Source: a virus
Length of the DNA: 36,680 nt
IMG/VR virus record: IMGVR_UViG_3300007735_000681
Span: 1 to 36,680 of that record
Strand: one strand, 5' to 3'
Shown: in pieces, positions 3,286-36,351 of the stretch
How positions within the stretch are numbered: position 1 is the first letter of the stretch
Layout: each line of letters begins with the position of its first letter
The notes under the pieces: model-generated
The model's input: only the letters and a program-made list of their open reading frames with translations
Database searches by the model: none
What the model was told of the DNA's origin: nothing
Position numbers and translations under genes: made by a program

Positions 3286-5176
3286 CGAACTTCATACGCG
3301 CATCCTTCGGGATCTGAAAAACCGTGCGACATGGGACGCCCGGCAGAGGCAGTTCTATGAGATGCGCACGTTCGGAATGCGTCGGAAGGTTAAGCCATGG
3401 CCCACCGCGGCGGACATGCACGTCGCGCTGATTGATCGCATCATTGAAAGGCTCAAACCTAACTACGTCAACTCAGCCTTGGGCAATGATGTGGTCGCCG
3501 GGTTTGTTCCAATGCGTCAGCAGTTGGCCCCTCTCACAGTCACAGCGGAGCGTTACTTTGACTACAAGATCCGTGAGCGCACTGCATTTCAATTTGAGAT
3601 CGTTCGCCTAATCGACGACATGCTTTTGTTCGGTCGCTCTGTACTCAAATCAATTTGGGACGAGGGAAAGAAAGAAATTATTTTCCAAGCAATCGACCCG
3701 ACCAGGTTCATTGTGCCCGATCAGACTGTCGCCCTAGACGACGCCGACTACCTTTGCCACGTCATGGTCCTATCGGTCGACCAGTACAAACGCGTCGCAG
3801 CCTATAACCAGGACGAAGATTTTATTAAGAGGATTGCCGGGCGGGGAACTAAGTTTGAAGGTATCAATACCGAAAAAGAACAGGCAGTTTACCAACGCGA
3901 AGGCATTACCTACGATTCTCGCCCTGACCGGATCATCCTTTGGGAGATCTACACTCGCAACGAAGACGACGAGTGGAATGTTAACACCTACTCGCCACTA
4001 GCGACCATGGAGCCTGTCCGGGAAGATTTCGTTCTTCCTTACAAGCACGGTCAGTGCCCATTCACAGAATTTAGCTACGAGTTAACCAACGGAGGATTCT
4101 ATTCGTCACGCGGGGTCGCAGAGATCCTAGCTGCGAATGAGATGACCCTGGCGAAGCTAAAGAACTCCATGCTCGACTTTTTGGAACTGGCAAATCGTCC
4201 TCTGTTCCAGGCCGACAATCCTGTTTCTCTGAACATGGCTAATCTCAAGATGCAGCCTGGGCAAATCCTGCCACAGGGCATCAAGCCTGTTCAGATGACA
4301 ACTCCCCCGATGGACTTCATGCGTGTTATGTACGACGAACGTGCAGAGGCAGAGCAGAGAGTTGGAACAATTGATTTCGGAGTCGGCAACAATCCCTCGG
4401 AGCCCGGTAGCTCCAGAAAAACAGCAACTGAAATTCAAGCGTTGGTGAACACCGGGTCCGCGGGTGCTGACTTACGAAACCGTCTTTTCCGCATGTCGCT
4501 AGGTCGTCTATTCCGTCAGTGCTGGTCGATCTATTTGCAGTACGACAAGAAAGATCTCAACTTCCGCTACGCTGAAGATACTGGCACCGTCCCCCCGGAG
4601 GCATTGCATGAGCAATACTCGATCATGCCCAAGGGTGGGTACGATTTCCAGACTCGCCAGTTCCAGCTTCAGAAGGCCGTAGCCAGGATGCAACTCCTGG
4701 GTCAGTCTCCGTTTATTAATCAGGCTGAGTTGGTCAAGTCTGTGCTCGAGCTCGATGATCCGAGCCTGGTACGTCGACTTGTCCAGGACCCGATGATGAA
4801 CCAGCAGGAACAGAGGGAAGAACAGGCGAAGGAACTCGCCGCGATGATGACGACAGCGTTCCCGATTTCAATCAAACCTACCGACGATCACAAGGCCCAC
4901 CTGGAGGTCATATTCGACTTCCAACAGGCTTCGGAAAAAGGATTCAGGCAGATCGACCAGGCAACGGCTCAGGCGATTGGTCAGCACTTGACTCAGCACT
5001 TACAGGCGCTGGAACAGATCGATCCGAACACTGCCAGGGCAATTACTGCCGAGCTCAAGAAAATGGACAAGGCAAAGATGAGACAGCAGGAGCAACTAAT
5101 GGGGGCTCAGGGTCAGTTGCCTCCACCGGAAATGGCTGGACAAGTTCCTCCCGAGATGGCACAACCGATGGCGTGA
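3269..5176 (+). CDS. Portal protein
   Basis: 635 residues. The portal forms the dodecameric ring at one capsid vertex through which DNA is packaged and ejected. The length, the position after terL and sequence features such as KPWPTAADMHVALIDRIIERLKP and the DDMLLFGRSVLK stretch fit portal proteins of podovirus-type phages. The C-terminal quarter is helical and glutamine-rich, ending in a Q/P/M-rich tail. AAGGA at 3261-3265 provides the ribosome binding site. The start overlaps the lipoprotein gene before it and the stop overlaps the methyltransferase start (GTGA), so the genes are probably translationally coupled. Confidence 0.9.
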   Translation: MEPINNELHTRILRDLKNRATWDARQRQFYEMRTFGMRRKVKPWPTAADMHVALIDRIIERLKPNYVNSALGNDVVAGFVPMRQQLAPLTVTAERYFDYKIRERTAFQFEIVRLIDDMLLFGRSVLKSIWDEGKKEIIFQAIDPTRFIVPDQTVALDDADYLCHVMVLSVDQYKRVAAYNQDEDFIKRIAGRGTKFEGINTEKEQAVYQREGITYDSRPDRIILWEIYTRNEDDEWNVNTYSPLATMEPVREDFVLPYKHGQCPFTEFSYELTNGGFYSSRGVAEILAANEMTLAKLKNSMLDFLELANRPLFQADNPVSLNMANLKMQPGQILPQGIKPVQMTTPPMDFMRVMYDERAEAEQRVGTIDFGVGNNPSEPGSSRKTATEIQALVNTGSAGADLRNRLFRMSLGRLFRQCWSIYLQYDKKDLNFRYAEDTGTVPPEALHEQYSIMPKGGYDFQTRQFQLQKAVARMQLLGQSPFINQAELVKSVLELDDPSLVRRLVQDPMMNQQEQREEQAKELAAMMTTAFPISIKPTDDHKAHLEVIFDFQQASEKGFRQIDQATAQAIGQHLTQHLQALEQIDPNTARAITAELKKMDKAKMRQQEQLMGAQGQLPPPEMAGQVPPEMAQPMA

Positions 5177-5697
5177 TAGCGCTAATGAGGCCAGAGGAGC
5201 AGTTGAATGCTCTTCGTACGTTGTATTCTTGGGCAAATGAAATTGGATTAAAAAAGAACGCGGTTGAGGTTGGTACATTCTCAGGAGAAAATGCCATACT
5301 CATGGCACAATATTTTGACGAAGTTACAACCATAGACCCATGGCTGAACGGATACGATTCAAACGATCACGCATCCAGCGCAAATATGTATGAGGTTGAA
5401 AAAAAATATTTTGAGAATATTGCAAACTTTCCTAATATCACGCACATCAAGATGAAAAGTGTCGACGCATCGAAAGAGTTTAAAGACGCGTCGGTTGACT
5501 TTGTGTACTTAGACGGAGACCATAGGACTGAGGCCCTGGTGGCGGATATCGACGCCTGGAAGCCAAAGGTCAGGCCGAGAGGAATTCTAGCAGGACATGA
5601 CATAAACATAGAAAGTGTGCATAATGCTCTCAAGCAAAGATTTATGGGAGTTACTGCCAAGATATTCACAGATAGTTCATGGGGGATAATTATATGA
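5173..5697 (+). CDS. Class I SAM-dependent methyltransferase (Methyltransf_24-like)
   Basis: 174 residues from GTG 5173, overlapping the portal stop; ATG 5185 is an in-frame alternative. The SAM-binding motif I is AVEVGTFSGENA, followed by VTTIDPW at the second strand. The later VDFVYLDGDHRTEALVADIDAW and GILAGHDI match the Methyltransf_24 group, which includes enzymes acting on sugars and small molecules. No DNA methyltransferase motif (DPPY or NPPF) is seen, so a DNA substrate is not supported. Its place between portal and scaffold, away from the glycosyltransferases, is unusual. The substrate is unknown; methylation of a glycan or of a virion protein are both possible. Confidence 0.85.
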   Translation: MIALMRPEEQLNALRTLYSWANEIGLKKNAVEVGTFSGENAILMAQYFDEVTTIDPWLNGYDSNDHASSANMYEVEKKYFENIANFPNITHIKMKSVDASKEFKDASVDFVYLDGDHRTEALVADIDAWKPKVRPRGILAGHDINIESVHNALKQRFMGVTAKIFTDSSWGIII

Positions 5698-9579: not shown

Positions 9580-10134
9580 ATGCCTCTTTTTCAATCTCCA
9601 GATTTAGCTTTTTTCCCAGCTTCATCAACAGAAAAAGTATATTATCCATTAGGCGTAAGCTTGCTTTCTGGAGCAGCAGTTCCACAGCAAAATAAAATCC
9701 TATATATGCCTTATTATGTAAAAAAAAATGTTGTTAATCCAACCTTATTAATTCAACAGACTGGCTCGCTTGGAAACACATTTAAAGTTGGAATTTATGA
9801 TGGAACTAATGGAATTTATGGGGCAAGTCTTTTAATTAGTGATGAAATAACAACAACCGTAACTCCTCAAATTTACAGCAAACAAGTTACAATTAATCTA
9901 AATAGAGGTTATTATATATTGGCTGGATTGATGACAACAGCAAATGCTAGTGCGACTAGGATTGTTACGGCTGTTAGCGTTAGAGAGGCTTGGGGAGACA
10001 TTGACTCAATAACATCTATTGATAATAATAACTTTTATAATGAGGCTGGAAGTAGTCTTCCAAGCACAATTGGAACAATAGTGAGAGAATCTGCTACAAC
10101 AAGTTGTGGTGTTAATGTTTTTATTAAATACTAA
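9580..10134 (+). CDS. AT-rich probable receptor-binding or fibre protein
   Basis: 184 residues, start preceded by AGGAG (9570-9574). The gene is visibly much more AT-rich than its neighbours and uses many ATT, AAT, TTA and ACA codons. This suggests it was acquired from elsewhere or evolves under different pressure. The protein is beta-rich with aromatic positions (YYPLG, ILYMPYYVKKNV, VGIYDGTNGIYG, GYYILAGL) and a C-terminus ending VNVFIKY, as in jelly-roll receptor-binding or fibre-tip domains. It is followed by small membrane proteins and the S74 tail fibre. Host-recognition is inferred from composition and context only. Confidence 0.65.
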   Translation: MPLFQSPDLAFFPASSTEKVYYPLGVSLLSGAAVPQQNKILYMPYYVKKNVVNPTLLIQQTGSLGNTFKVGIYDGTNGIYGASLLISDEITTTVTPQIYSKQVTINLNRGYYILAGLMTTANASATRIVTAVSVREAWGDIDSITSIDNNNFYNEAGSSLPSTIGTIVRESATTSCGVNVFIKY

Positions 10135-10794: not shown

Positions 10795-11976
10795 ATGGCA
10801 AATTTCACAGCAGGAACTTCATTCACGGACGGCGTTACAAATGACGTAACGGCTGCCAAGCTTAATGCGCTAGTGGCCGATGCCGTGCCTACTTCCAGCT
10901 TATCCTTAAACAGCACAACTGGAACCATTGGCTTATTTAGCTCTGGAACTGGAACGGCTGCAACCCCAGCCATCCAACCTACAGGCGATACCAACACAGG
11001 CATATTTTTCCCAGCCGCCGACACCATTGCGTTCAGCGAGGGTGGGGCGGAATCAATGAGGATTGATTCGAGTGGAAATGTTGGGATTGGAATTACACCA
11101 TCCCAAAAACTAGATGTAAATGGAGCATCTTCTATTCGCGGGGCACTATTTCTTGGGGATGGTTCTTCTTCTGTAATTAGAAAGCTAACTTCAAGCACAC
11201 CATTAACTTTTGCAAATAATGGTGGATCAGCCGAGATGACCATTGATTCAAGTGGCAATGTTGGGATTGGGACTACACCATCCCAAAAACTAGATGTAAA
11301 TGGAGGATCTGCTATTCGTGGAACACTATTTCTTGGGGATGGATCTTCTTCTGTAATTAGAAAGCTAACTTCAAGCACACCATTAACTTTTGCAAATAAT
11401 GGTGGATTAGCCGAGATGACCATTAATTCGAGTGGGAATGTGGGGATTGGGACAACAAGTCCTTCTGCACAACTTGAACTATCCACCGATAGTGCAAAGA
11501 AGCCATCAACTAACACTTGGACAATTGCATCTGACCAAAGGTTAAAAACCAACATTATAAACGCTGACAATGATCGGTGTTACGAAATTGTTAAGCAAGT
11601 TCCACTTAAACGCTATTCTTGGAAGAACGAAGTTTATTCTCAAGAGCAAGTAAGGGACAGAAGCAAACTTGGTTGGATCGCGCAAGACGTAGAGGCGGTG
11701 TTTCCTAAAGCCGTTGGAACAAACAGATTTGCCTACAATCAAGTCTTTGAAGATGTGGTCACACCAGAGTTAGATTCTGATGGTAATGCTGTGCTTGACG
11801 AGAATGGTGTAGCCAAAACAAAGACTGAGAAAAGATTGGTTAGCGAAGAGGTTATTCAGGACTGTAAGGATCTTAATTCCGACCAGATTTATGCGGCTAT
11901 GTATGGCACAATTCAAAAGCTAATTGAGAAGGTGGAAATCCTCGAAGCTAAAGTCACCGCACTGGAGGCCGCATGA
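10795..11976 (+). CDS. Tail fibre with peptidase S74 (intramolecular chaperone) domain
   Basis: 393 residues with AGGAGA before the ATG. The N-terminal 85 residues likely attach to the tail. Residues about 85-220 are made of 60-residue repeats with the phage fibre signature SSGNVGIGTT-SQKLDVNG. The C-terminal 150 residues are an intramolecular chaperone: TWTIASDQRLKTNI with S246-D247-x-R249-x-K251 matches the self-cleavage site, followed by YSWKNE, LGWIAQDVEAVFPKAV and a helical coiled coil end. In known S74 fibres the domain drives trimer folding and then cleaves itself off. The protein is the best candidate for the main host-recognition fibre. Confidence 0.9.
   Translation: MANFTAGTSFTDGVTNDVTAAKLNALVADAVPTSSLSLNSTTGTIGLFSSGTGTAATPAIQPTGDTNTGIFFPAADTIAFSEGGAESMRIDSSGNVGIGITPSQKLDVNGASSIRGALFLGDGSSSVIRKLTSSTPLTFANNGGSAEMTIDSSGNVGIGTTPSQKLDVNGGSAIRGTLFLGDGSSSVIRKLTSSTPLTFANNGGLAEMTINSSGNVGIGTTSPSAQLELSTDSAKKPSTNTWTIASDQRLKTNIINADNDRCYEIVKQVPLKRYSWKNEVYSQEQVRDRSKLGWIAQDVEAVFPKAVGTNRFAYNQVFEDVVTPELDSDGNAVLDENGVAKTKTEKRLVSEEVIQDCKDLNSDQIYAAMYGTIQKLIEKVEILEAKVTALEAA
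11041..11457 (+). repeat. 180-bp tandem repeat in the tail fibre gene
   Basis: Two full copies (11041-11220 and 11221-11400) and a partial third (11401-11457) follow one another with an exact 180-base period, or 60 residues. Long stretches are identical at the DNA level, for example TCTGTAATTAGAAAGCTAAC in both copies, so the duplication is recent or kept uniform by gene conversion. The repeat unit carries the SSGNVGIG fibre motif. Copy number may vary between strains. Confidence 0.9.
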
Positions 11977-12803: not shown

Positions 12804-14639
12804 ATGCCGTACTACAGCGACAACCTGGACGAACTCCTTGCTATTGCCGGGTCTGTAAGTTTTGAGGGGGGCCAGGCGTCTGGCATAGTTGCCAACCTTA
12901 TTAAGGACAACCAGGCGAGCGAACTTATCAATATGACGATAAGTCCGTCCGGAAACTTGGAATCCAGGATGGGCATTGAGGCAATCTCAACAAACGTTTC
13001 TAGCGGATCAAACATTCAAGGCATGCACTATGTGGACACACCGAGCCTGGAGCGCCTTGTCGTTGCTACAAATGGAACAATATACAGAACTACAAGCGCA
13101 ACTACTTTTTCTACCACCGGTGGAACTGTAGCAAATGCAAGCGTTGACGTGGACTTCTCTCAATTCAATAATCGACTTTATTATACCGACGGATCTGGAT
13201 TCCTTCAGTTCTCGAATGGAACGAATGATTATCGGCAAGGGACGAGTATTCTTGCAATTACTGTATCAACACAAGGATTGGGATATACTGGATCAACCGT
13301 AGCGGTAACAATTGGCGCGCCAAGTCTTGGATACGGAACAACTGCAAGTGCTGTTGCAACCGTTACAAGCGGAACAATATCTGCTGTTGTTGTTACAAAT
13401 GCTGGATCTGGATATACTTCAGCACCGTCGGTAACGATAGCTGCGCCACCAGCTGGAGGCGGACACTTTACGGCAACTGCCGTTGCCAGCGTATCTGCTC
13501 TTGCCCCATCTGGCCTTCGCCTTGTCCGCCAATTTACAAATAGGATATTTGCGGTTGGAACCGGAACAAATCGAAACACGCTCTATGCCTCAGATATTCT
13601 TGATGCAGAAGTTTGGAAATCAACCAACAGCATTATTGTTGGTGGCGATGATGGTGAGGACATTGTGGCAATTCAGCCTTTCTACGATTACGAAATCCTT
13701 GTTTTCAAGCCGAACAAAATTTACCTGGTAACAGCCGACCCGACAGCGACTACTGCTGCTGGCTGGACTGTAAGACTTTTGAATGATCGAATTGGATGCG
13801 TGTCCGGAAGGTCCGTAAACTTTGTAAATAAAGATGTATTCTTCTTAGCGAACGATGGAATTAGGTCTGTCGCCAGGTCCGTTGCAGACGACTTCTATAT
13901 TGTTGGAACTCCGGTTAGCGAGCCTGTGAAGAATATCATTGCTAGAATCAATAAAAACTATGTGACATTGTGCAACGCGGCCTTCTACAATAACCGATAC
14001 TACCTAGCCATCCCTCTCGATACAGCTACAACGCCAAACTATATTTTAGTATATAATGCCATATTCAATTCGTTTGAAGGTCTCTGGAGTATCGCAGCTT
14101 CGAGAATGGTGATTACAAACTTTTCATCCGGATACTCAATAAACGCGTTAAAGCTGGCAATCGGAAGTCCCACCAGCAAGGTTGGACATTATGCGGGATA
14201 CAGGGATGCCGACTCGTCTGACCCTACCACTAATTACGTTGACTACGATACGTCCGGAACGTACACAAGCTCGGTAACATCAAAGGCGTATGAATTTGAT
14301 GACAGAATATCTCAAAAATTTGGTTCTCACTACGAAATTGAATTCTATAATTCAGGATCTACAAATGCAACGATCAGCATGCGCAGAGATACCGACGGTG
14401 CCGACATAGGACTTGCCACAGGAGTTGACACAAGGTCTGCCGGTGGAATTACGCTTCCATTCACGCTTCCCGCAACGTTGTCATCACAAACTGTAAAGCG
14501 AATTGCCGACAGCTTGAGGTCGTACCAGAAGTGGCGCAATATGCGCTTAAAGATATCGGCTCCATCTAAAAAACTGTCGCTACGAGGAATTTTAATGGCT
14601 GCAAATCCAGATACGATTGAGTTGCAAAAGAACATATGA
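12804..14639 (+). CDS. Tail tubular B-like nozzle protein
   Basis: 611 residues. N-terminal FEGGQASGIVANLIKDNQASELINMTISPSGNLESRMGIEAI is typical of podovirus tail nozzle proteins, which define the phage length of the ejection tube. Near residues 150-232 is an inserted beta module with GLGYTGSTVAVTI and GSGYTSAPSVTIAAPPAGGG, a glycine-rich repeat found in many phage structural proteins. The remainder contains repeated beta-propeller-like strands (NRIFAVGTGTNRNTLYASD, YEILVFKPNKIYLVT, VFFLANDGIRSV). It sits right after the adaptor gene and overlaps the next start (ATGA). Ribosome binding site not obvious. Confidence 0.8.
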   Translation: MPYYSDNLDELLAIAGSVSFEGGQASGIVANLIKDNQASELINMTISPSGNLESRMGIEAISTNVSSGSNIQGMHYVDTPSLERLVVATNGTIYRTTSATTFSTTGGTVANASVDVDFSQFNNRLYYTDGSGFLQFSNGTNDYRQGTSILAITVSTQGLGYTGSTVAVTIGAPSLGYGTTASAVATVTSGTISAVVVTNAGSGYTSAPSVTIAAPPAGGGHFTATAVASVSALAPSGLRLVRQFTNRIFAVGTGTNRNTLYASDILDAEVWKSTNSIIVGGDDGEDIVAIQPFYDYEILVFKPNKIYLVTADPTATTAAGWTVRLLNDRIGCVSGRSVNFVNKDVFFLANDGIRSVARSVADDFYIVGTPVSEPVKNIIARINKNYVTLCNAAFYNNRYYLAIPLDTATTPNYILVYNAIFNSFEGLWSIAASRMVITNFSSGYSINALKLAIGSPTSKVGHYAGYRDADSSDPTTNYVDYDTSGTYTSSVTSKAYEFDDRISQKFGSHYEIEFYNSGSTNATISMRRDTDGADIGLATGVDTRSAGGITLPFTLPATLSSQTVKRIADSLRSYQKWRNMRLKISAPSKKLSLRGILMAANPDTIELQKNI

Positions 14640-15025
14640 CAGCTGCTGAATACATCGAGCTATCTGGAGTCCCTGAGTCAAGATGGCCCAATTTTAGGGA
14701 ATGGTTTAAGTGGCACCAGGACAACTACCTGGTCGGAGTTGCAAAGGACGGAGACAAGATATCCGGGGTGGCAATTGCAAGATGCTTGCACGAAGGAGAA
14801 GAGCCTGTGCATTATGTACATAGACAAGACGGAAACACTGCATTTGTAGACTTGACGGTCACCTCTACAGATGGTAGTAGTACACCTTATAGCCGTTTGG
14901 CTATGAAGACATTATTGTCTATACTCTGGAGCAGATTTGGCCCGAGGAAGAATATTGTTTTTAATAGGGGTGGCAAAAGAAAGGTTTACGATTACATGAA
15001 ATTTATGCGAAAGGTACTACTATAA
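14636..15025 (+). CDS. Small protein with acetyltransferase-like pattern, tail module
   Basis: 129 residues, start overlapping the nozzle protein stop (ATGA) and stop overlapping the next start (TAATG). The pattern NYLVGVAKDGDKISGVAIARCL, then GNTAFVDLTVTS, then YSRLAMKTLLSILWSRFGPRKNIVFNRGG and a basic end could be a GNAT-like fold in strand-strand-helix order, but the acetyl-CoA binding loop (Q/RxxGxG/A) is missing. A catalytic role is thus doubtful. Its constant location between tail and internal virion genes suggests a virion or assembly function. Confidence 0.65.
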   Translation: MTAAEYIELSGVPESRWPNFREWFKWHQDNYLVGVAKDGDKISGVAIARCLHEGEEPVHYVHRQDGNTAFVDLTVTSTDGSSTPYSRLAMKTLLSILWSRFGPRKNIVFNRGGKRKVYDYMKFMRKVLL

Positions 15026-17362: not shown

Positions 17363-18328
17363 ATGGCAGACAGAGTTCAAAGACCATTAGTCACAATGCC
17401 CTGGAGCGAGAAGTACTATGCTGACGCAGAAAGAGCTCAGGCTGTTGAAGATGAGGATCGTCAACTTCGCGTTGAAATGCTGAAGCAAAAACTTTATCCA
17501 GCGGACACTGCCCAGAAGGCGGCCGAAGAATTGATGCAAACCACAAACGAGGCAAGAAGGGCTGCGCTAATGCAGACTCTTTACGAGACAACTGGAACAA
17601 CCACAATTCCAGGAACTAGTCTAAATGTTCCAGCCGGAACCCCAGAAGCAGACCAGTATAATTATCTTGAGGGCATGATGGATAGAGTTGCCAGATATGA
17701 AAGAATGGCAGGGCTAGAAACTGATCCGATCAAGAGAGACATGAAAATGAAGACGGTCGACATGGCAAAGAAGTCCATCCAAGCTAAAGGCAAAGAATTG
17801 ACCGCTGCCGATGTTGCTTTTGAGATGAATGCCACCGACGCCTACAGGCTCGCAGACGAACTTGAGGACACGGTTAAGAAATATGGCAATTACGAAATAT
17901 CAAATCCAGAAGGAAGCGCGGCCCTTCGTCAGAAACCTTATTTCCTTGCAGTGGCTTTAGCCAAGGCGCTTGACCCGGGATCTGTCGCAAGAGAAAGTGA
18001 AGTTAAATCATTCCTAGAGACAATGGCATTAGGAACAAGTCCGGTTGAAGTTCCGGGATTGGATCTGCCTATTGCGGGGCCAAGAACCGCAACGACCCTC
18101 GAAGGAATTAAGATGCTTAGGGATCGACTTGATATTAAGGCCAACGACTACAAAAGAATTTCCGGCAGGACAATTGAATTGCCAAAGAGGAACAGGGAAG
18201 ACGCAACTGCTCCAACTCAGGCGCAACAATCGTATCAGGCACCAACGCAACAACAATCGCAACCGATGAGTCAGTCCGGATTTGGCGGATACGATCCTCG
18301 CGCCCGAAGAGTAATCCCAAGCCGTTAG
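17363..18328 (+). CDS. Internal virion protein (putative)
   Basis: 321 residues, helical and charged, with an alanine/glutamate/glutamine-rich N-terminal half. The C-terminal 45 residues (QAQQSYQAPTQQQSQPMSQSGFGGY) are glutamine-rich and disordered, ending in a basic RARRVIPSR. It lies 4 bases after the 616-residue protein and 6 before the giant gene, so the three likely form one complex. A role in the ejected core is inferred from place and composition. Confidence 0.75.
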   Translation: MADRVQRPLVTMPWSEKYYADAERAQAVEDEDRQLRVEMLKQKLYPADTAQKAAEELMQTTNEARRAALMQTLYETTGTTTIPGTSLNVPAGTPEADQYNYLEGMMDRVARYERMAGLETDPIKRDMKMKTVDMAKKSIQAKGKELTAADVAFEMNATDAYRLADELEDTVKKYGNYEISNPEGSAALRQKPYFLAVALAKALDPGSVARESEVKSFLETMALGTSPVEVPGLDLPIAGPRTATTLEGIKMLRDRLDIKANDYKRISGRTIELPKRNREDATAPTQAQQSYQAPTQQQSQPMSQSGFGGYDPRARRVIPSR

Positions 18329-18334
18329 TCGGTC

Positions 18335-21300
18335 ATGGCCGACGAAATCATCCAGGATAAACGCGAGGCGGCAAACTATCTGCTTCGCCAGTATCGCGAA
18401 AATCCTCAGTTTGAGTTCACGCAGGACGAGGCAAAAATCGTCCACGAATCGTATGGGGGCAAAGTTCAATTTGTAGATTCAAAACCAATATTTGCGGACG
18501 AGTTGACTTCCGCGGAATTCATCAGATCTCAAGACGAGTCAGATCCAACTTTTATAGCAAGTGAAGACGAATTTCTTCTCCTAAGAAAAACCGAACCTAA
18601 ATTTAGTAAGAAATTTGAAACCGGATACGAAGGCGGGAAGCAGTACTTTAAGGATGCTTTTGGCAAGGCTGGGCAAGATATTGCAGAGTATTACAAAAAG
18701 CCTATTGAGTTTGGTGACGAAATAAAACCACTTGCAACGGCAGCCGAAGCGCTTGCAAGAGGTACGATGGATCTCGGCACGACAGCAGTCGGTGCGTCAA
18801 AGTTTATTGAGAAGGCGCCTTACATGGCCGCCGGGTTGCTCGGTCTCCAGGCAGATTATAAATCTTATTTAAACCAAAAGACAATTGACCAAAACTACCA
18901 AATGCAGGCAGTTGATAAGATCAACGCCGAAAGAGCTAAAGGGGAAAGCATTATCGGACTACCGAAAGAGTCAATCATGCCAGGGGTGGCAGAAGTTGGA
19001 TCAATGTTCATGGACCCAACGACATTCGCCCCACTTGTTGGTCCTGGAGCCAAGGCTACATCCGTAGCGTCAAAAACAAGCAGAGGATTGAAGGCTGGGA
19101 CTAAGATTGCCGAGGGAGTAGAAACTGGAGCTAGGGCTGTTGGAAACGTGATTGATTACGGAGTTGGAAAGGTTGGTGAAGGAATTCAGCGCGTTTTCCC
19201 ATCAGTATCAGCACCGAAAACAGTAGGAGCCATAGCCACAGGCGCGGCCGCTGTAGGCATTCCAGGCGCGTTCCCGGTTGGAGCCAAGATTGCAGCCACT
19301 AGGGCCGGGGCCGAAGTTGTAGAGAAAGGAGCCCAGGCTGCGAGGATTATGGGAGAAGAAGCGATGACAGGACCTTCTCGCATGAATCTCATGCAGAGGG
19401 TTGCCAAGAACCAGAAGAATCCGGAATGGTTGCGCCGGGCCGCAAATACTTCGATAATGTCTTCACCGATCACTGCCAAAACGGCTGAACTTGGACTAGA
19501 CGTAGGAGTTGGATCTGCAAAGGGAGCGGTCGTTGGCGCTGGATTAGGTTTTGTTGGGTCAGGCGGAGAAGAAGAGGGTATTGGTGGCGGAGTCGCAATT
19601 GGGTCCAGAATGGGGGCAATTGGAGGAGGATTTAGAGGCATTTCCCAACAGCCAGCTAGAAAAGCCCTGGCGAAGCAAGGCGACGTCAACAGGCTATTCG
19701 CAAAACAAGCCGAGCTTGGGCTGGATGTAGAAAGCATTGCCAACTACATCCGAAAAGATAATCGGCCCTTTTTGGACGCGGCGACTCTTCAGATGATGGA
19801 CCCCAACGTCCAGGTCGAGTTCCATAATCGTGATTCTTTTATGAGACCTGAGAATGCTGGGATCAACGCGGCGGGGGTAGTCAAGGGAGTTCCGGACAAG
19901 AGCGGAAAACTTAGGTTACTGATAAACATGGACGACAAGAGGGCTTCGGGGGATACGGTGCGCCATGAGGCAACGCATATCATAACGAAGTCACCGGTAA
20001 TCAATAAGTCTGAAGGACGCATGGCAGTCATGGCAGAATATGGTCCAGAGGGTCTTCGCAAGAGAGGAAACGAGTACGCCAGGAAACTAATAGAGGGCGA
20101 GCGCCAGGGTCGTGGATCGCCAACAGAATCCGAGGTTAGGGCGAAGGTAAATGAACTTCGCGAGGGATCTCAAAGGGCAGAACCGGGAGCCGGAGACCTG
20201 GATTGGATTGCAGACGAAATTCTTGCAGAACAGTTTGTTGGTGAAACCCGCGGTAGAGATCTTGATTCGCTTAGGCGCAAGACTCTTCCAGGCACAGATC
20301 TGCTCTCGCTCCAGGAAGGATACCTGGCTCCTGTTGGTAGGCTTTTGGCTAGGTTTGGGATCGACACGACAGGGCCCAAGCCGACGAACATTGACACGCT
20401 TTTCAAAGATAACCCACTGGTGCCGTCCAAGCAACTACGAGAACTGACTACAAGATGGTTCCGGGACCGGGACAAGTATCTTGACGGACTAGAGAAGGCA
20501 GAGAAGCAGAAGGACGTGACGCTAGTTCCTGGAGCCGGGAACAGAAATCTTGCCAATAATCCTGCAATCAAATTTACTCGCAACAGAAAGACGAATCTTG
20601 AGGAAAACGATTTTGCTGTAAAGTTCCCGGATGGTACGGTCAGGGCTAAAGATCCGGCATCGATCCTGGCAGTAGACAAGGCCCGGGTGGCAGACGTTGG
20701 ACGCCTCTACAATCCGGACGCTGTCCTAGAGCGCGGTAGTCCAGAGTTCGGTGTGAAGATTCAATCAGACGGAAAACCGTATGTTGGCGGGAATAAGCTG
20801 CCGGAAGGATTCTATAGCCTAGACAGTTTTAATGACTTTACCAAGGAGGTCGCCAAGACCCTGGAAGATAGTCGACAGGAGGGTAGGACATTTTCGGTCT
20901 GGTACCAAAAGGTCGGCACAGGCGAGGATGGTAGCTGGGCTCAGTCTGTTAAGCGCGGACTAGGCAACATTAAGGTTGGGCAATCCGAGATTGCGTTCCT
21001 TGGTTGGCGCCTGTCCAAGGCCGGGAACATCCTGGCTCAGGCAGTAGATGTTACTGCTCTCCGCGGTCGCATGTTGGATTTTGCCAGGTCAGGCAAGGGC
21101 AGGATTGACGAAGTGTGGGGCGGAGATCTTGCATCGTATGAAAAAGACGTAATGCAATACCTAGACAATCATGCCAACTCAAGGCCGGGCGAGACAGGGA
21201 TCGGGATCGATAAGCGCAACGCAATCAACTACCTATTCGGCATCACAAACGAGGCCAACAAGAATGCGAATCCAATGTACGCAGCCGAAGGTCGTCCTCC

Positions 21301-23503
21301 AGGGAGCCTAGTCAAATCCTATCGCCTGGACCGTATCGCCAATTCCCGGGACACTGGCCGCACCGGGTTCTTTATTGATTACCAGAAGCAGGCGGCGAAC
21401 TTGGCGCCTGGTGAAAAGTTTGCTCCTTCAACAGGCGCCGAAAACAGGAATCTTGAGATCAATAGAAAAGATCGAGAGTTGATGGCAAGGGTCCCACTCA
21501 AGCCAGAAGATAAGCAAATAATCAAGAATGCTTCTGCAGGAAAAACAAAGTTATCGTCTGGGGCTAAGGCTCAGGAGAAAATGATTGAGAGCAGGGTCAG
21601 GGAGGTTAAGGGAAGGTTCCCGCAGGCATCTGGATGGGCCAAGATTGAGCTTGCTGACGTAGAGGTCACAAAACCAAGGAAGTCCGGGGAAGATCCAAAG
21701 ATAAATCCTGTTTTCAAAACAGTTCCATATTCATTTGAAAAAGATCCGAATACAGGAAAAGATACTGCTGCGACACATGCAAAAAGAGTAGAGGATCACT
21801 CAAACAAGGTTGTCTCTGAATTAATGAAGGTTGTCGAGCGTGCAAAATCCGGAGATAAGAACGCTCAGAAAATACTTGGTCATAAAACATGGTACCGCGG
21901 AATGAACGAAATTCTGCGCAGAACATTTGGTGGTGTAGCAGATTATTTTGCAGATCTTCTCGGGGCCTTTAGTCCAAATACTTCCGTAGATATCAACTGG
22001 AGATTTGGGGTTGAGGCTTTAAGAAAAGTCACAAGAGGTGATTACGATGCAATTCTTTCCAAAGCGGACGAGTGGGTAAAGTCAGGCAAAACAATATCTG
22101 ACTACAAAAAGAAAGGGAATCCAATGATTCTTCAAGAGAATCAGAAATTGTTTGGAATGAATTCTGACAATGGAATGATTGCGATGCTCGACCTGTGGAG
22201 ACAAGTTCAAGCCAAGCAGGCCCCCAAGGCAAGAAACTTTGCCCTTAATTTAGTTGGGCAATCTTTGAAAGCTACAATCGACGTTTGGGCCGCCAGGTTC
22301 TTACAAAGAATGGCAGGACTTGAAAGAGTGCCCACCGTTGCCGAAGGCGGAGTTAGTGGAAATGTTTTGGCGGATACTTCTAGGGTTGGTGGGCAATTTG
22401 GATACGGACAAGAAGTATTTGAGTCCGCGGTTCAGAAATTAAGAAAATCTGGAATTGAAGATTTGAAGGACATAACCGCTCCGGATCTACAGGCAATCGT
22501 ATGGTTTTTGGAAAAGGAAATTTGGGCTGAGAATAATTGGACAAGCAAGACAGGAGAGGGTGGCTCATTTGAGACAGAGGCGGATCTGACGCAACCGTCT
22601 AGGTATGTTATCGGATTGAGCCAGGAAACTCCAGAGGTCAAGCCAAGCGCTGAACAGCAGGCATCATTTGCATCAGATATCAGGAACACATTCGCAGAGG
22701 CTCCTGGAGTAATTGCGACAAAGATTAAGGATTCAATCGGGGCATTCATGGGCACAACCGAGAGGTCGTTCGACGCGGAGTTTGTTGTCACTCCAGATTT
22801 TGATCCGTCAAAACTTATTGAAGTCACAGCATCTAAGGCAATGCAGTCGGGACAGAAGAATGCATTTGTGAGCAGGGTCCTGGGCCCCAACGAGGACAAT
22901 GCAAATGCTCGTCCTGGAATAGAAATTTACTTGCGCAAGAAGGGATCGATGGGCGACGTGAATGCTCTAGCAAAACAAGTGTCTGAAGCTGGAATTGATG
23001 GGTTTACCATGATCGTAGATCCAAGGGCAAAGGTCGCTGGAGTACCGGATGAGTTCATAGGCGTGAGATATCAGTACGTCCCCGAGTTTTCTGGAGATAA
23101 AAATTGGCAAGCAAATGCAGACGCGCTTCGAGGAAAGCTACAGGACCTGGCGGACAACCTTATGTCACAATCGGAAATTGCCTTTGCCAACGTAGTCAAG
23201 TATGATACCCTTGTTTTAGGAGAAAAAGATTATGGCAACTTTAATACAGGAATTGGAACAGGATATACCGAGGGCCGAGGAGCGTCTTGGATCGGACGCG
23301 CGGATAGTGCGCGAAATGAAGCGTCAATTAGAGGGACTGAAAGCGGAAAGCAGACTCAGCGACCAACTGGTTTTCAACGTATCGGCAACGAGTCAAGACA
23401 ACCAGCAAAAGCGGATTTAGAGTCGGAAGTTAAAAAAAGAGCTATCAAAGAAGAGCTCTTGTCGCCAGCAAAATTACTTACTAGGAAAAGAGGCGTCCAA
23501 TGA
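18335..23503 (+). CDS. Giant multi-domain internal/ejected protein (zincin motif and HhH-GPD-like region)
   Basis: 1722 residues, the largest gene in the window. The N-terminal 120 residues are acidic. Glycine/alanine-rich hydrophobic segments near 290-325 and 385-435 (GAIATGAAAVGIPGAF, GSAKGAVVGAGLGFVGSG) could contact membrane, as in ejected proteins that make a channel. VRHEATHIIT at 542-551 carries HExxH (H544, E545, H548), the zinc metallopeptidase signature, with acidic WIADEILAEQF downstream. Around 1186-1325 the pattern YRGMNEILRRTFGG, LLGAFSPNTSVDINW, then K1298-ARNFALNLVG and D1316-VWAARFL has the same order and the same 18-residue Lys-to-Asp spacing as HhH-GPD DNA glycosylases. The arrangement resembles polyvalent proteins injected with phage DNA. 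Activities are predictions. Confidence 0.75.
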   Translation: MADEIIQDKREAANYLLRQYRENPQFEFTQDEAKIVHESYGGKVQFVDSKPIFADELTSAEFIRSQDESDPTFIASEDEFLLLRKTEPKFSKKFETGYEGGKQYFKDAFGKAGQDIAEYYKKPIEFGDEIKPLATAAEALARGTMDLGTTAVGASKFIEKAPYMAAGLLGLQADYKSYLNQKTIDQNYQMQAVDKINAERAKGESIIGLPKESIMPGVAEVGSMFMDPTTFAPLVGPGAKATSVASKTSRGLKAGTKIAEGVETGARAVGNVIDYGVGKVGEGIQRVFPSVSAPKTVGAIATGAAAVGIPGAFPVGAKIAATRAGAEVVEKGAQAARIMGEEAMTGPSRMNLMQRVAKNQKNPEWLRRAANTSIMSSPITAKTAELGLDVGVGSAKGAVVGAGLGFVGSGGEEEGIGGGVAIGSRMGAIGGGFRGISQQPARKALAKQGDVNRLFAKQAELGLDVESIANYIRKDNRPFLDAATLQMMDPNVQVEFHNRDSFMRPENAGINAAGVVKGVPDKSGKLRLLINMDDKRASGDTVRHEATHIITKSPVINKSEGRMAVMAEYGPEGLRKRGNEYARKLIEGERQGRGSPTESEVRAKVNELREGSQRAEPGAGDLDWIADEILAEQFVGETRGRDLDSLRRKTLPGTDLLSLQEGYLAPVGRLLARFGIDTTGPKPTNIDTLFKDNPLVPSKQLRELTTRWFRDRDKYLDGLEKAEKQKDVTLVPGAGNRNLANNPAIKFTRNRKTNLEENDFAVKFPDGTVRAKDPASILAVDKARVADVGRLYNPDAVLERGSPEFGVKIQSDGKPYVGGNKLPEGFYSLDSFNDFTKEVAKTLEDSRQEGRTFSVWYQKVGTGEDGSWAQSVKRGLGNIKVGQSEIAFLGWRLSKAGNILAQAVDVTALRGRMLDFARSGKGRIDEVWGGDLASYEKDVMQYLDNHANSRPGETGIGIDKRNAINYLFGITNEANKNANPMYAAEGRPPGSLVKSYRLDRIANSRDTGRTGFFIDYQKQAANLAPGEKFAPSTGAENRNLEINRKDRELMARVPLKPEDKQIIKNASAGKTKLSSGAKAQEKMIESRVREVKGRFPQASGWAKIELADVEVTKPRKSGEDPKINPVFKTVPYSFEKDPNTGKDTAATHAKRVEDHSNKVVSELMKVVERAKSGDKNAQKILGHKTWYRGMNEILRRTFGGVADYFADLLGAFSPNTSVDINWRFGVEALRKVTRGDYDAILSKADEWVKSGKTISDYKKKGNPMILQENQKLFGMNSDNGMIAMLDLWRQVQAKQAPKARNFALNLVGQSLKATIDVWAARFLQRMAGLERVPTVAEGGVSGNVLADTSRVGGQFGYGQEVFESAVQKLRKSGIEDLKDITAPDLQAIVWFLEKEIWAENNWTSKTGEGGSFETEADLTQPSRYVIGLSQETPEVKPSAEQQASFASDIRNTFAEAPGVIATKIKDSIGAFMGTTERSFDAEFVVTPDFDPSKLIEVTASKAMQSGQKNAFVSRVLGPNEDNANARPGIEIYLRKKGSMGDVNALAKQVSEAGIDGFTMIVDPRAKVAGVPDEFIGVRYQYVPEFSGDKNWQANADALRGKLQDLADNLMSQSEIAFANVVKYDTLVLGEKDYGNFNTGIGTGYTEGRGASWIGRADSARNEASIRGTESGKQTQRPTGFQRIGNESRQPAKADLESEVKKRAIKEELLSPAKLLTRKRGVQ

Positions 23504-23505
23504 CC

Positions 23506-23778
23506 TCACTCGACGTCTTTGAGCCTATCGGTCAAACCGGAGAATCTACCGCGGGAATCAAACACGGTTCCGTCCCGGGTAATAAAACCGTCAAATCTTC
23601 CGTTCCGATCGCTAACCCAACTTCTGTTCCTGGAAACCATTCCGTCAATAGCCCCTGTTCTTGTTGTGCGAATACCCCGATCCAGCATTCCGGAATAGGT
23701 TCCTGTCTTGTCCAGGAGGAGATCCCCGGCGAAACAGTGACCGAGTGACAAAACAACCAACAACAGGATTTTCTTCAT
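23506..23778 (-). CDS. Minus-strand secreted repeat protein
   Basis: 90 residues, the only convincing gene on the minus strand. It starts with a signal peptide (KKILLLVVLSLGHCFAGD). The mature part consists of imperfect repeats of about 18 residues: TGTYSGMLDR..., TGAIDGMVSR...VSDR, NGRFDGFITRDGTVFDSR, GRFSGLTDR. The consensus is G-x-aromatic/Ile-S/D-G-hydrophobic, as in small secreted beta-strand repeat proteins. Its start codon (23778-23776) overlaps the start of the plus-strand lysozyme gene at 23777, so the two genes diverge from one point. A plus-strand frame 23500-23748 covers the same DNA and is the alternative. No clear ribosome binding site is seen for the minus gene. A similar segment occurs in the 28093-28245 protein. 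Confidence 0.6.
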   Translation of the reverse strand: MKKILLLVVLSLGHCFAGDLLLDKTGTYSGMLDRGIRTTRTGAIDGMVSRNRSWVSDRNGRFDGFITRDGTVFDSRGRFSGLTDRLKDVE

Positions 23779-24601
23779 GGCAAACATTCTAACACAGGCA
23801 CCCGAACTAAGCGCAAGCAAAAATTTCACCCCATTTGGGGCCGGGCAATTCGACAGGCAAAACGTGTCTAGGCCCATGCAGGAGCCACAGAGGGCAGGGT
23901 GGACAGACGAGAAGGGGCAACGCCTGGTGGCAATGTCGGATCGTATGCGGTCGGCCGCGACGATGGATGATATCCGGGCAGAGACAACACAAAGAGCAAT
24001 GGAGGACGAAGTGACTAAAAACATTATGCAAGATCAAAACTTAATTGGGCCAAAGGTGCCTCAGAACGAATACGACTCGGCTCTAGCAACGGTCGACATG
24101 GAGGCTAGAAAAGACAAGGCCGGGAATGTCATGGTCTACAATCTTCCGTCCGGAGACATGGGCGGGAGCTACGAGGTTGCCGGGATCAACGACAAGTATC
24201 ATCCAGCGGCCGCCGAAATGCTAAAAAACTTGCCACCTGGAGAGCGCAGAGACGCAGCTGCCAGGTACGTCGTAGAATACACAAAACCATTCACGTCTAA
24301 ACTTCCCGAGCCTTACCGACCATTTTTCCAGGACCTGGCATTCAACCGCGGGGTTGGAGGGGCTACGAAGTTCCTACAACGCGCGATCGGGGTAAAGGAC
24401 GACGGAGCGCTAGGACCTCAGACGCTCAAGGCCCTGGAGGGCTTGAACCCATCCGAGGTAATGAAGAACGTTTCCGTCGAGCAAATGACCTACGAGAGAA
24501 AACTTGCGGAGCAGAATCCGGAACGTAAAAAGTTTCTCAATGGTCTCCAGAATAGAGTCTCGAACAGATATCGACTTTTCGGGAATGCTCCAACCGGGTA
24601 A
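23777..24601 (+). CDS. Lysozyme-like peptidoglycan hydrolase, GH108-type
   Basis: 274 residues. The first 95 residues are polar and carry no recognised fold. From about residue 105 the protein matches the order of GH108 (N-acetylmuramidase) enzymes: a Glu (E109, candidate catalytic residue) in TVDMEARKDKAGN, then GGSYEVAGINDKYHP, and the C-terminal peptidoglycan-binding signature PYRPFFQDLAFNRGVGGATKFLQRAIGVKDDGALGPQTLKAL. These enzymes cut the glycan backbone of the cell wall. The gene follows the internal virion block, so it may be a virion-carried enzyme that opens a path during ejection, or the endolysin. No signal peptide is present. The identification is from sequence pattern. Confidence 0.75.
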   Translation: MANILTQAPELSASKNFTPFGAGQFDRQNVSRPMQEPQRAGWTDEKGQRLVAMSDRMRSAATMDDIRAETTQRAMEDEVTKNIMQDQNLIGPKVPQNEYDSALATVDMEARKDKAGNVMVYNLPSGDMGGSYEVAGINDKYHPAAAEMLKNLPPGERRDAAARYVVEYTKPFTSKLPEPYRPFFQDLAFNRGVGGATKFLQRAIGVKDDGALGPQTLKALEGLNPSEVMKNVSVEQMTYERKLAEQNPERKKFLNGLQNRVSNRYRLFGNAPTG

Positions 24602-35420: not shown

Positions 35421-35689
35421 AGTATTACGCCGAAGAGGAGGGTGAGTTGACGTTCGAGCAGATGGTCCCGGGCAAGTATTATAGGTCCGGGAACGACTAC
35501 GGAATCTGCGAGATCAATCAGCATGCTAGCAACAAGCCTAAGATCCTTACCTATCTCAATAGGTGCGGGAGTTGCATAGGTGGCAACGTCCTGCTGTTCG
35601 AGGTCGACATGACTGACCGGATGCTTGCCAAGTTGAAGGAGCGCCGGGACAGAACGATCGGGTTCATCGACGAGATGGGCACATGGTGA
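35417..35689 (+). CDS. Small protein upstream of the mom-like gene
   Basis: 90 residues; GGAGG lies 7 bases before ATG 35417, which decides against the longer frame from 35258. The acidic N-terminus (YYAEEEGELTFEQMV) precedes PGKYYRSGNDYGICEINQHASNKPKILTYLNRCGSCIGGNVLLFEVDM; CGSC gives two cysteines spaced as in a metal site, plus one before. The mom-like gene starts at its stop. Could be a mom partner. Confidence 0.7.
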   Translation: MKYYAEEEGELTFEQMVPGKYYRSGNDYGICEINQHASNKPKILTYLNRCGSCIGGNVLLFEVDMTDRMLAKLKERRDRTIGFIDEMGTW

Positions 35690-36351
35690 GTTTACGCGCA
35701 GATAGTTCAATAGAAGAACTTCCCCTATTCCAAGGGGAGAACGGAGGTGCGATCCCTACCTCTGCGCTCCAACTTAAATTCCGGGCAATCACTTCCAAGA
35801 CCATGAACGAGGTGGTCGTTGCCAATCACTACGCGCACCGGGCAGTGCCATGTAGTTGGTCGTTTGGATGCTTTAACGAAGAGGAGTTGCTAGGCGTAAT
35901 CTCATTCGGCAAGCCAGCATCGCCTCATTTATGCAGGGGCATATGCGGGGAGGAGAATGCATCCAGGGTGTACGAGTTGAACAGGCTATGGCTCGACGAT
36001 CGGTGCCCTAAGAATTCTGAGAGCAGATTTATATCCTGGAGCATCCGGGAACTATCCAGGTTGCGACCGCACTTGATCCTGGTTAGCTATGCAGATACCG
36101 GGGCCGGGCATAGTGGAATGATCTACGCAGCCACCAACTGGATTTACACCGGATTGTCTGACAAGAGATCTTCCGGTGACAAGGTTGTGGGCAACAAGCA
36201 TAGTCGACATTCGCGGACCCTGGAAGAAGCAGTAATTGTTCCGCGGACCAGGAAGCATAGGTTTGTCTATTTCTGCAATCAAAAGGACAAGGCATTGCTG
36301 AAGTGGAGCACACAAAACTGGAAAGAATGGAAAGAATGGAGGCAAGAATGA
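35683..36351 (+). CDS. mom: Mom-family DNA modification protein
   Basis: 222 residues from ATG 35683 (GTG 35686 alternative), overlapping the previous gene. The core follows the order of phage Mu Mom, a GNAT-like enzyme that converts adenine in DNA to an N6-carbamoylmethyl-type base and so protects it from restriction. Visible signatures: VVANHYAHRAVPCSWSFG near the start, YELNRLWLDD (97-106), SRFISWSIRELSRLRPHLILV and YADTGAGHSGMIYAATNW (136-153), then SDKRSSGDKVVGNKHSR. The N-terminal 30 residues are variable. In Mu expression is tightly controlled; here it sits last but one in its operon. The nearby CxxC protein may be connected. Confidence 0.85.
   Translation: MVSLRADSSIEELPLFQGENGGAIPTSALQLKFRAITSKTMNEVVVANHYAHRAVPCSWSFGCFNEEELLGVISFGKPASPHLCRGICGEENASRVYELNRLWLDDRCPKNSESRFISWSIRELSRLRPHLILVSYADTGAGHSGMIYAATNWIYTGLSDKRSSGDKVVGNKHSRHSRTLEEAVIVPRTRKHRFVYFCNQKDKALLKWSTQNWKEWKEWRQE

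Follow-up and report, generated by a model that had tools for sequence, protein, structure and literature searches.

SieA of phage P22 blocks DNA injection, with escape mutants in the ejection proteins gp16 and gp20, and it has been called the sole studied system thought to block injection among short-tailed phages (PMC10883804). It occurs as three divergent types. Types A and B do not differ in specificity (PMC10883804), so divergence is no proof of distinct targets. In the P22 genome (NC_002371), sieA is a minus-strand gene immediately following ejection gene 16. The name beta-flower dates from 2023 and was given to a group of predicted structures; the paper suggested a Tubby-like resemblance and offered no tested function (Durairaj et al. 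2023, PMC10584680). The tips of their hairpins carry the motif [DNEQ]xxG (PMC10584680).

The window analyzed here is a whole stretch of 36,680 nucleotides, the IMG/VR virus record IMGVR_UViG_3300007735_000681. Between a giant gene and a lysozyme gene it harbors a minus-strand gene predicted to encode an exported, beta-flower-like protein. The genes and gene parts concerned are:

17363-18328, plus strand: gene of 321 amino acids for a probable ejection protein, the A version of which is found only with allele A of the minus-strand gene
18335-23503, plus strand: giant polyvalent-like protein with a HEATH zincin-type motif at amino acid 544
18335-20233, plus strand: N-terminal third of the giant gene, which co-segregates with the minus-strand allele; the C-terminal cassette (types i to v) does not
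23500-23748, plus strand: frame of 82 codons, the codon-aligned antisense of the minus-strand gene, open in all relatives
23506-23778, minus strand: gene for a beta-flower-like protein of 90 amino acids, predicted to be exported, here as allele A, identified from homologues, a codon-position test, a profile and a predicted structure
23777-24601, plus strand: lysozyme (PG_binding_3 endolysin-like) gene, found directly after the giant gene in distant relatives

The protein encoded on the minus strand begins MKKILLLVVLSLGHCFAG, followed by DLLLD. As a preliminary description of this DNA had it, the start codon of the gene (23776-23778) shares two bases with that of the lysozyme (23777-23779), and the gene fills the gap between its neighbors, with its stop two bases from the stop of the giant gene (23501-23503). 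That description proposed a search for homologues of the 90-residue protein and a comparison of substitution ratios in both frames. Full-length relatives were found in 14 contigs of the IMG/VR proteins (41-90% identity), and a profile search raised the number of contigs to 18. An independent search based on the lysozyme led to the same 18 close relatives (lysozyme identity 88-96%), and in 18/18 the gene is located between the giant gene and the lysozyme, on the same strand. Within allele classes, changes in the minus frame fall mainly at third codon positions, and pN/pS is 0.03-0.57 in the minus frame versus 0.5-4.5, mostly ~1, in the plus frame, which places amino-acid constraint in the minus frame only. 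Relatives that keep the plus frame and break the minus frame with stops, named in the same description as the observation that would count against the gene, did not occur; both frames are open across the relatives. Because full-length relatives are found at a constant place and the minus frame is constrained, a chance ORF can be excluded, and on sequence grounds we consider 23778..23506 (minus strand) to be a real gene, the anatomy of which is near certain.

The codon usage of this gene is atypical for the phage. At 0.067 per codon, it falls just over the antisense background (5th-95th percentile -0.17 to 0.063, versus 0.076-0.239 for sense genes). The sign of the GC skew is also reversed across 23475-23864. 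Rfam and tRNA searches gave no match, neither the protein nor the major capsid protein had a relative among bacterial genomes, and significant relatives were not found among isolated phages. An integrase was searched for in the phage and not found, which implies that the protein would act in lytic infection.

Two parts can be distinguished in the encoded protein:

23728-23778, minus strand: signal peptide, codons 1-17 (MKKILLLVVLSLGHCFA ahead of the cut, GD after it), with a signal peptidase I-type C-F-A site
23509-23727, minus strand: variable mature core of 73 amino acids with four predicted beta-hairpins, in classes A, B and C, based on allele comparison and predicted structure

The signal peptide that had been claimed is borne out at about 17 residues, with the cut expected after C-F-A, a site placed by inspection under an A-x-A-like rule. 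It is found in two versions, which are common to several allele classes. A lipoprotein was considered and ruled out, as there is no lipobox residue ahead of C15 (position -1 is H, R or N). Past the N-terminal hydrophobic region no transmembrane stretch is predicted, and the remainder is beta. The four repeats of about 17 residues noted earlier are present, but they are captured better by a hairpin of the form G-x-(Y/F/I)-x-G, tipped with [DNEQ]xxG, than by the G-x-aromatic-S/D-G consensus proposed for them. In shuffle tests, alleles B and C show a strong 17-residue periodicity (p=2e-4), which does not reach significance in the allele A of the window taken singly (p=0.06).

AlphaFold2 predicts eight short strands in four hairpins for the allele A of the window and for allele C alike, a number within the symmetric antiparallel hairpin sets of beta-flowers (8, 10 or 12 strands), whose fold is a shallow closed barrel with a hydrophobic channel. 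The mean pLDDT of the window protein is 75 in the best of five models (47-57 in the others), and that of the mature core of allele C is 86, with all five models in agreement (83-86). The best Pfam match is PF21785 (Bflower_2), to class C alleles at 22 bits (E ~1e-4, range 1.1e-4 to 1.5e-4), which is 16 bits under its curated cut-off of 38 bits. This match spans only part of a 5-fold model, and the predicted structure has four hairpins. Eight of the 15 members match Bflower_2 at E<=10, and the allele of the window reaches only E 0.065 with PF21784 (Bflower). The [DNEQ]xxG motif, a short one counted in the sequence, is found three times in allele A, six times in B and three times in C. No match to the beta-flower profile was identified in 15 more distant phages, and Foldseek and VIA returned no solved beta-flower for superposition. 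The best solved structure by sequence was 7zcu LH2-gamma (E 1.4, not significant), and those found by Foldseek had E 0.1 or worse. Among viral structures there was one weak phage match, A0A6J5NLS9, with E 4.7e-3 (0.06 with a second model). By predicted structure and motif, the protein is beta-flower-like; it is not a formal Pfam member.

In more distant relatives (lysozyme 44-60% identical), the stop of the giant gene and the start of the lysozyme overlap or are at most 44 nt apart at 61/61 loci, this being the number where the junction is readable. The overlaps have the form ATGA or a single base. No comparable minus-strand gene is found at the junction in any of these 61 loci. At one outgroup locus, which has a tight ATGA junction, a short minus-strand ORF with a loose signal-peptide pattern starts within the lysozyme gene. 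The tight junction in the outgroups implies that the minus-strand gene was inserted there, and comparison of the loci indicates an inserted gene (moron) under purifying selection. The suggestion that the gene is a moron acting in the envelope gains support from this insertion, given its absence from 61/61 distant relatives, and from the signal peptide for export.

The ATG at 23500, where the plus frame starts, overlaps the stop of the giant gene as ATGA, and this is best read as a relic of the former giant gene-lysozyme junction. Taken with a frame that is open in all relatives, the overlap could instead suggest that the 82-residue plus-strand frame is the true gene and the minus frame its shadow. 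This is highly improbable, because pN/pS in the plus frame is mostly near neutral and changes fall at third positions of the minus frame, because the signal peptide, the repeats, the fold and the beta-flower profile all belong to the minus strand, and because the relic explains the ATGA. The plus frame is open although its amino acids are unconstrained. Leu and Ser codons that would place a stop in the antisense (TTA, CTA, TCA) account for 0/197 within the plus-frame span versus 20/44 in the signal-peptide codons outside it, counted over unique sequences. For three representative alleles the counts are 0/35 versus 6/15 (Fisher p=3e-4), and the chance of having no such codon, estimated from the codon usage of the phage itself, is 5-24% per single sequence. 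Stop avoidance in the plus frame is suggestive, as related sequences are not independent. The frame may function as a stop-free translated spacer, or relay, through which ribosomes leaving the giant gene would reach the lysozyme start without polarity.

Candidate expression signals are located at both ends of the minus-strand gene:

23763-23779, plus strand: ribosome-binding site of the lysozyme (AGGATTTTCTTCATG), in codons 1-5 of the minus-strand gene, invariant in 19/19 phages
23779-23795, minus strand: candidate promoter, an extended -10-like element (TGT-TAGAAT) in lysozyme codons 2-7, conserved
23490-23507, minus strand: candidate terminator, a hairpin GAGG...CCTC followed here by a T-run, within the final giant-gene codons

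The ribosome site of the lysozyme, AGGATTTTCTTC followed by ATG, sits in the first codons of the minus-strand gene and would have been used since the insertion. The TGT-TAGAAT element ends 7 nt ahead of the minus-gene ATG, and its hexamer is TAGAGT in four phages. A standard sigma-70 scan did not report the element, and no Shine-Dalgarno sequence was seen ahead of the minus-strand gene. A promoter within the first lysozyme codons would yield a leaderless mRNA. Over the candidate promoter, synonymous sites of the lysozyme are near-constant, with CTA ACA CAG invariant, and codons 1-15 of this gene show less synonymous change (0.13 versus ~0.28). The reduction is compatible with an embedded promoter, though not specific to one, since the same dip is found in another gene and at the 3' end of the lysozyme, where the next gene overlaps. 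A PD-(D/E)XK gene overlaps the lysozyme 3' end by up to 98 bases (24504-24601), and lysozyme synonymous change falls there. The hairpin after the minus-gene stop is kept across unrelated giant-gene ends, with a good T-run in some phages only. It would end the transcript of the minus-strand gene and could limit the antisense transcription into the giant gene that the preliminary description foresaw and that may occur.

The mature core occurs as three allele classes, ~40-50% identical, between near-identical flanks. These near-constant flanks are the signal-peptide DNA, the 5' end of the lysozyme and the last bases of the gene (GACGTCGAGTGAGGTCATT). All six combinations of the two signal-peptide versions with the three cores are found, and core A is seen with all five of the unrelated versions of the giant-gene C-terminus. 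These patterns indicate that the allele classes of the mature domain are exchangeable and reassort freely with signal peptides and giant C-termini. The lysozyme is near-constant (95% of amino acids) over the core alleles. The DNA of core A is 99-100% identical among five phages; in the same A phages, four of them with upstream sequence, gp17363 is 94-96% and the giant N-termini are 83-92% identical. Core A seems to have spread recently, and among A-block phages only.

Association with core A was tested for 44 segments and found for 17363-20233 alone (permutation p<=0.002). The identity of 17363-18328 is 98% among core A phages versus 54% against the rest, that of the first ~630 codons of the giant gene is 91-93% (core A) versus 64-82%, and the last part of the gene preceding 17363 follows the same trend. 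The A-version block accompanies core A in 5/5 cases versus 0/11 (Fisher 2.3e-4), the A phages with the upstream block numbering five only. No association with core A was found for the middle and C-terminus of the giant gene, the lysozyme or any other comparable gene. The ~3 kb between the matched block and the core is shuffled among the A phages. Because the upstream blocks differ by 4-17% between phages with near-identical A cores, and because the stretch between is shuffled, the matching appears not to reflect one shared haplotype. Cores B and C differ by ~50% yet share one gp17363 class, so the matching concerns A versus the rest only; a comparison of B with C elsewhere in the genome gave nothing convincing. 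Such matching can arise from direct contact, from a shared host or by chance in so small a sample. Further contigs with an A-type gp17363 end ahead of the minus-strand gene and speak neither for nor against it. On one contig (L143:7001-9841), which also ends before this gene, an A-type gp17363 (91%) is found with a non-A giant N-terminus (68%), so the two are separable. From its place ahead of the giant gene, 17363-18328 probably encodes an ejection protein; family searches with it gave no match.

Other regions of the phage also vary. The giant C-terminal domain (21395-23503) is a swappable cassette, of which close relatives carry at least five unrelated versions, ending in a shared short tail. 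One version is ASCH-like (L029), and the cassette looks like an exchanged, injected effector module. The linked structural genes 12804 and 14636 (12804-15025) occur in at least two deeply divergent versions, whose variation is independent of the minus-strand gene; three phages (G009, G016 and G017) share the version of the window. For 9580-10134 and the tail-fibre gene (10795-11976), no full-length relative was detected in nine sister phages, the genes of which are elsewhere at least 90% identical. Also present are a Mom-like DNA modification protein (35683-36351; phrog_1384, E 5e-51) and a methyltransferase-like gene (5173-5697).

The best reading of the minus-strand gene, to which we give a probability of roughly 40%, is a moron for superinfection exclusion whose exported product acts on ejection proteins. 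The protein would be exported to the periplasm of the infected cell and bind incoming ejection proteins of related phages there, so that the DNA-delivery conduit would not form. Exclusion, which the preliminary description had given as an example, is the likeliest function because the gene has the place and orientation of sieA, is next to probable ejection proteins, and encodes an exported and diverse protein. The occurrence of core A with only one version of the probable DNA-injection proteins suggests a guard against rival phages, and such matching would be expected if each core recognizes one ejection-protein class or must spare that of its own phage. A more elaborate model, which we hold as doubtful, is that the beta-flower is a polymorphic reader of ejection proteins, with a core fitted to its own block and exchanged at the constant flanks, mismatches being lost, and with the antisense serving as a stop-free relay in the late operon.

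The co-segregation of core A with the upstream block would equally follow if the protein assisted its own phage in entry or assembly, the beta-flower being bound to the ejection or giant protein of that phage, perhaps as a periplasmic partner either packaged or encountered in ejection, so that the matching reflects a cooperating pair. The presence of the gene in 18/18 of the clade agrees with such a helper, but its absence from all more distant phages sharing the giant gene-lysozyme layout argues that it is not generally needed, its strand is opposite to that of the late genes, and the signal peptide would export the protein from the cell assembling virions; we regard this as rather unlikely. 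Somewhat less unlikely is that core A and the A block both fit the envelope of one host lineage, with a component of the host envelope, not a phage protein, as the target (through receptor masking or envelope remodelling). A shared host would yield co-segregation without physical linkage, and bacterial cell-envelope beta-flowers and lipoproteins exist (PMC10584680); among comparable genes, however, co-segregation with the core is limited to the block next to the giant gene. The tail-fibre gene is too different among sister phages to compare and counts neither way here. The overlapping divergent starts could instead point to the lysozyme, with the exported protein inhibiting or timing it, or blocking rival endolysins, like PliC/MliC inhibitors. 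Small beta-barrels including PliC show a weak structural likeness (Z 3.2), but this Z is at background for small barrels and is equaled by many unrelated folds, no MliC/PliC Pfam match is found even at E<=10, and the lysozyme hardly varies over the core alleles, which makes such a regulator improbable.

Diverse beta-flower cores matched to a probable ejection block would provide the first testable biological partner of the fold, and a recognition module, if true, its first function. If the exclusion reading holds, a small soluble protein would also join the candidates for excluding superinfecting short-tailed phages. The interlocked layout, with a ribosome site in the codons of another gene and an open antisense frame, illustrates how an opposite-strand gene can be fitted into a late operon.

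Compared with P22 SieA, the minus-strand gene shares its strand, its place after the last ejection-type gene, divergent types at one locus and an envelope protein, predicted here from the signal peptide. In contrast, SieA, with 160-odd residues, passes several times through the inner membrane; it comes from a temperate phage and has a known promoter. The protein described here has an N-terminal hydrophobic stretch only, in place of several transmembrane helices, and no significant sequence similarity to SieA (BLASTP E 0.51 over 13 residues). Judged by these features, it is not a SieA. With beta-flowers, the families of which (PF21785 Bflower_2 and PF21784 Bflower) belong to clan CL0395 with the Tubby C-terminal domain, it shares a small single domain, tandem ~17-residue beta-hairpins and [DNEQ]xxG tips; it differs in its signal peptidase I-type signal without a lipobox, in being phage-encoded, and in its allelic diversity. 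Like phage morons, the gene is inserted between genes that abut in relatives, is on the opposite strand and has atypical codon usage. Morons with a promoter and terminator of their own stand free; this gene interlocks with the start of the lysozyme, its antisense frame is open, and its promoter and terminator are candidates. The neighboring giant protein, with its HEATH zincin-type motif and swappable C-terminal domains, one of them ASCH-like, resembles the proteins known as polyvalent (Iyer et al. 2017, PMC5512222).
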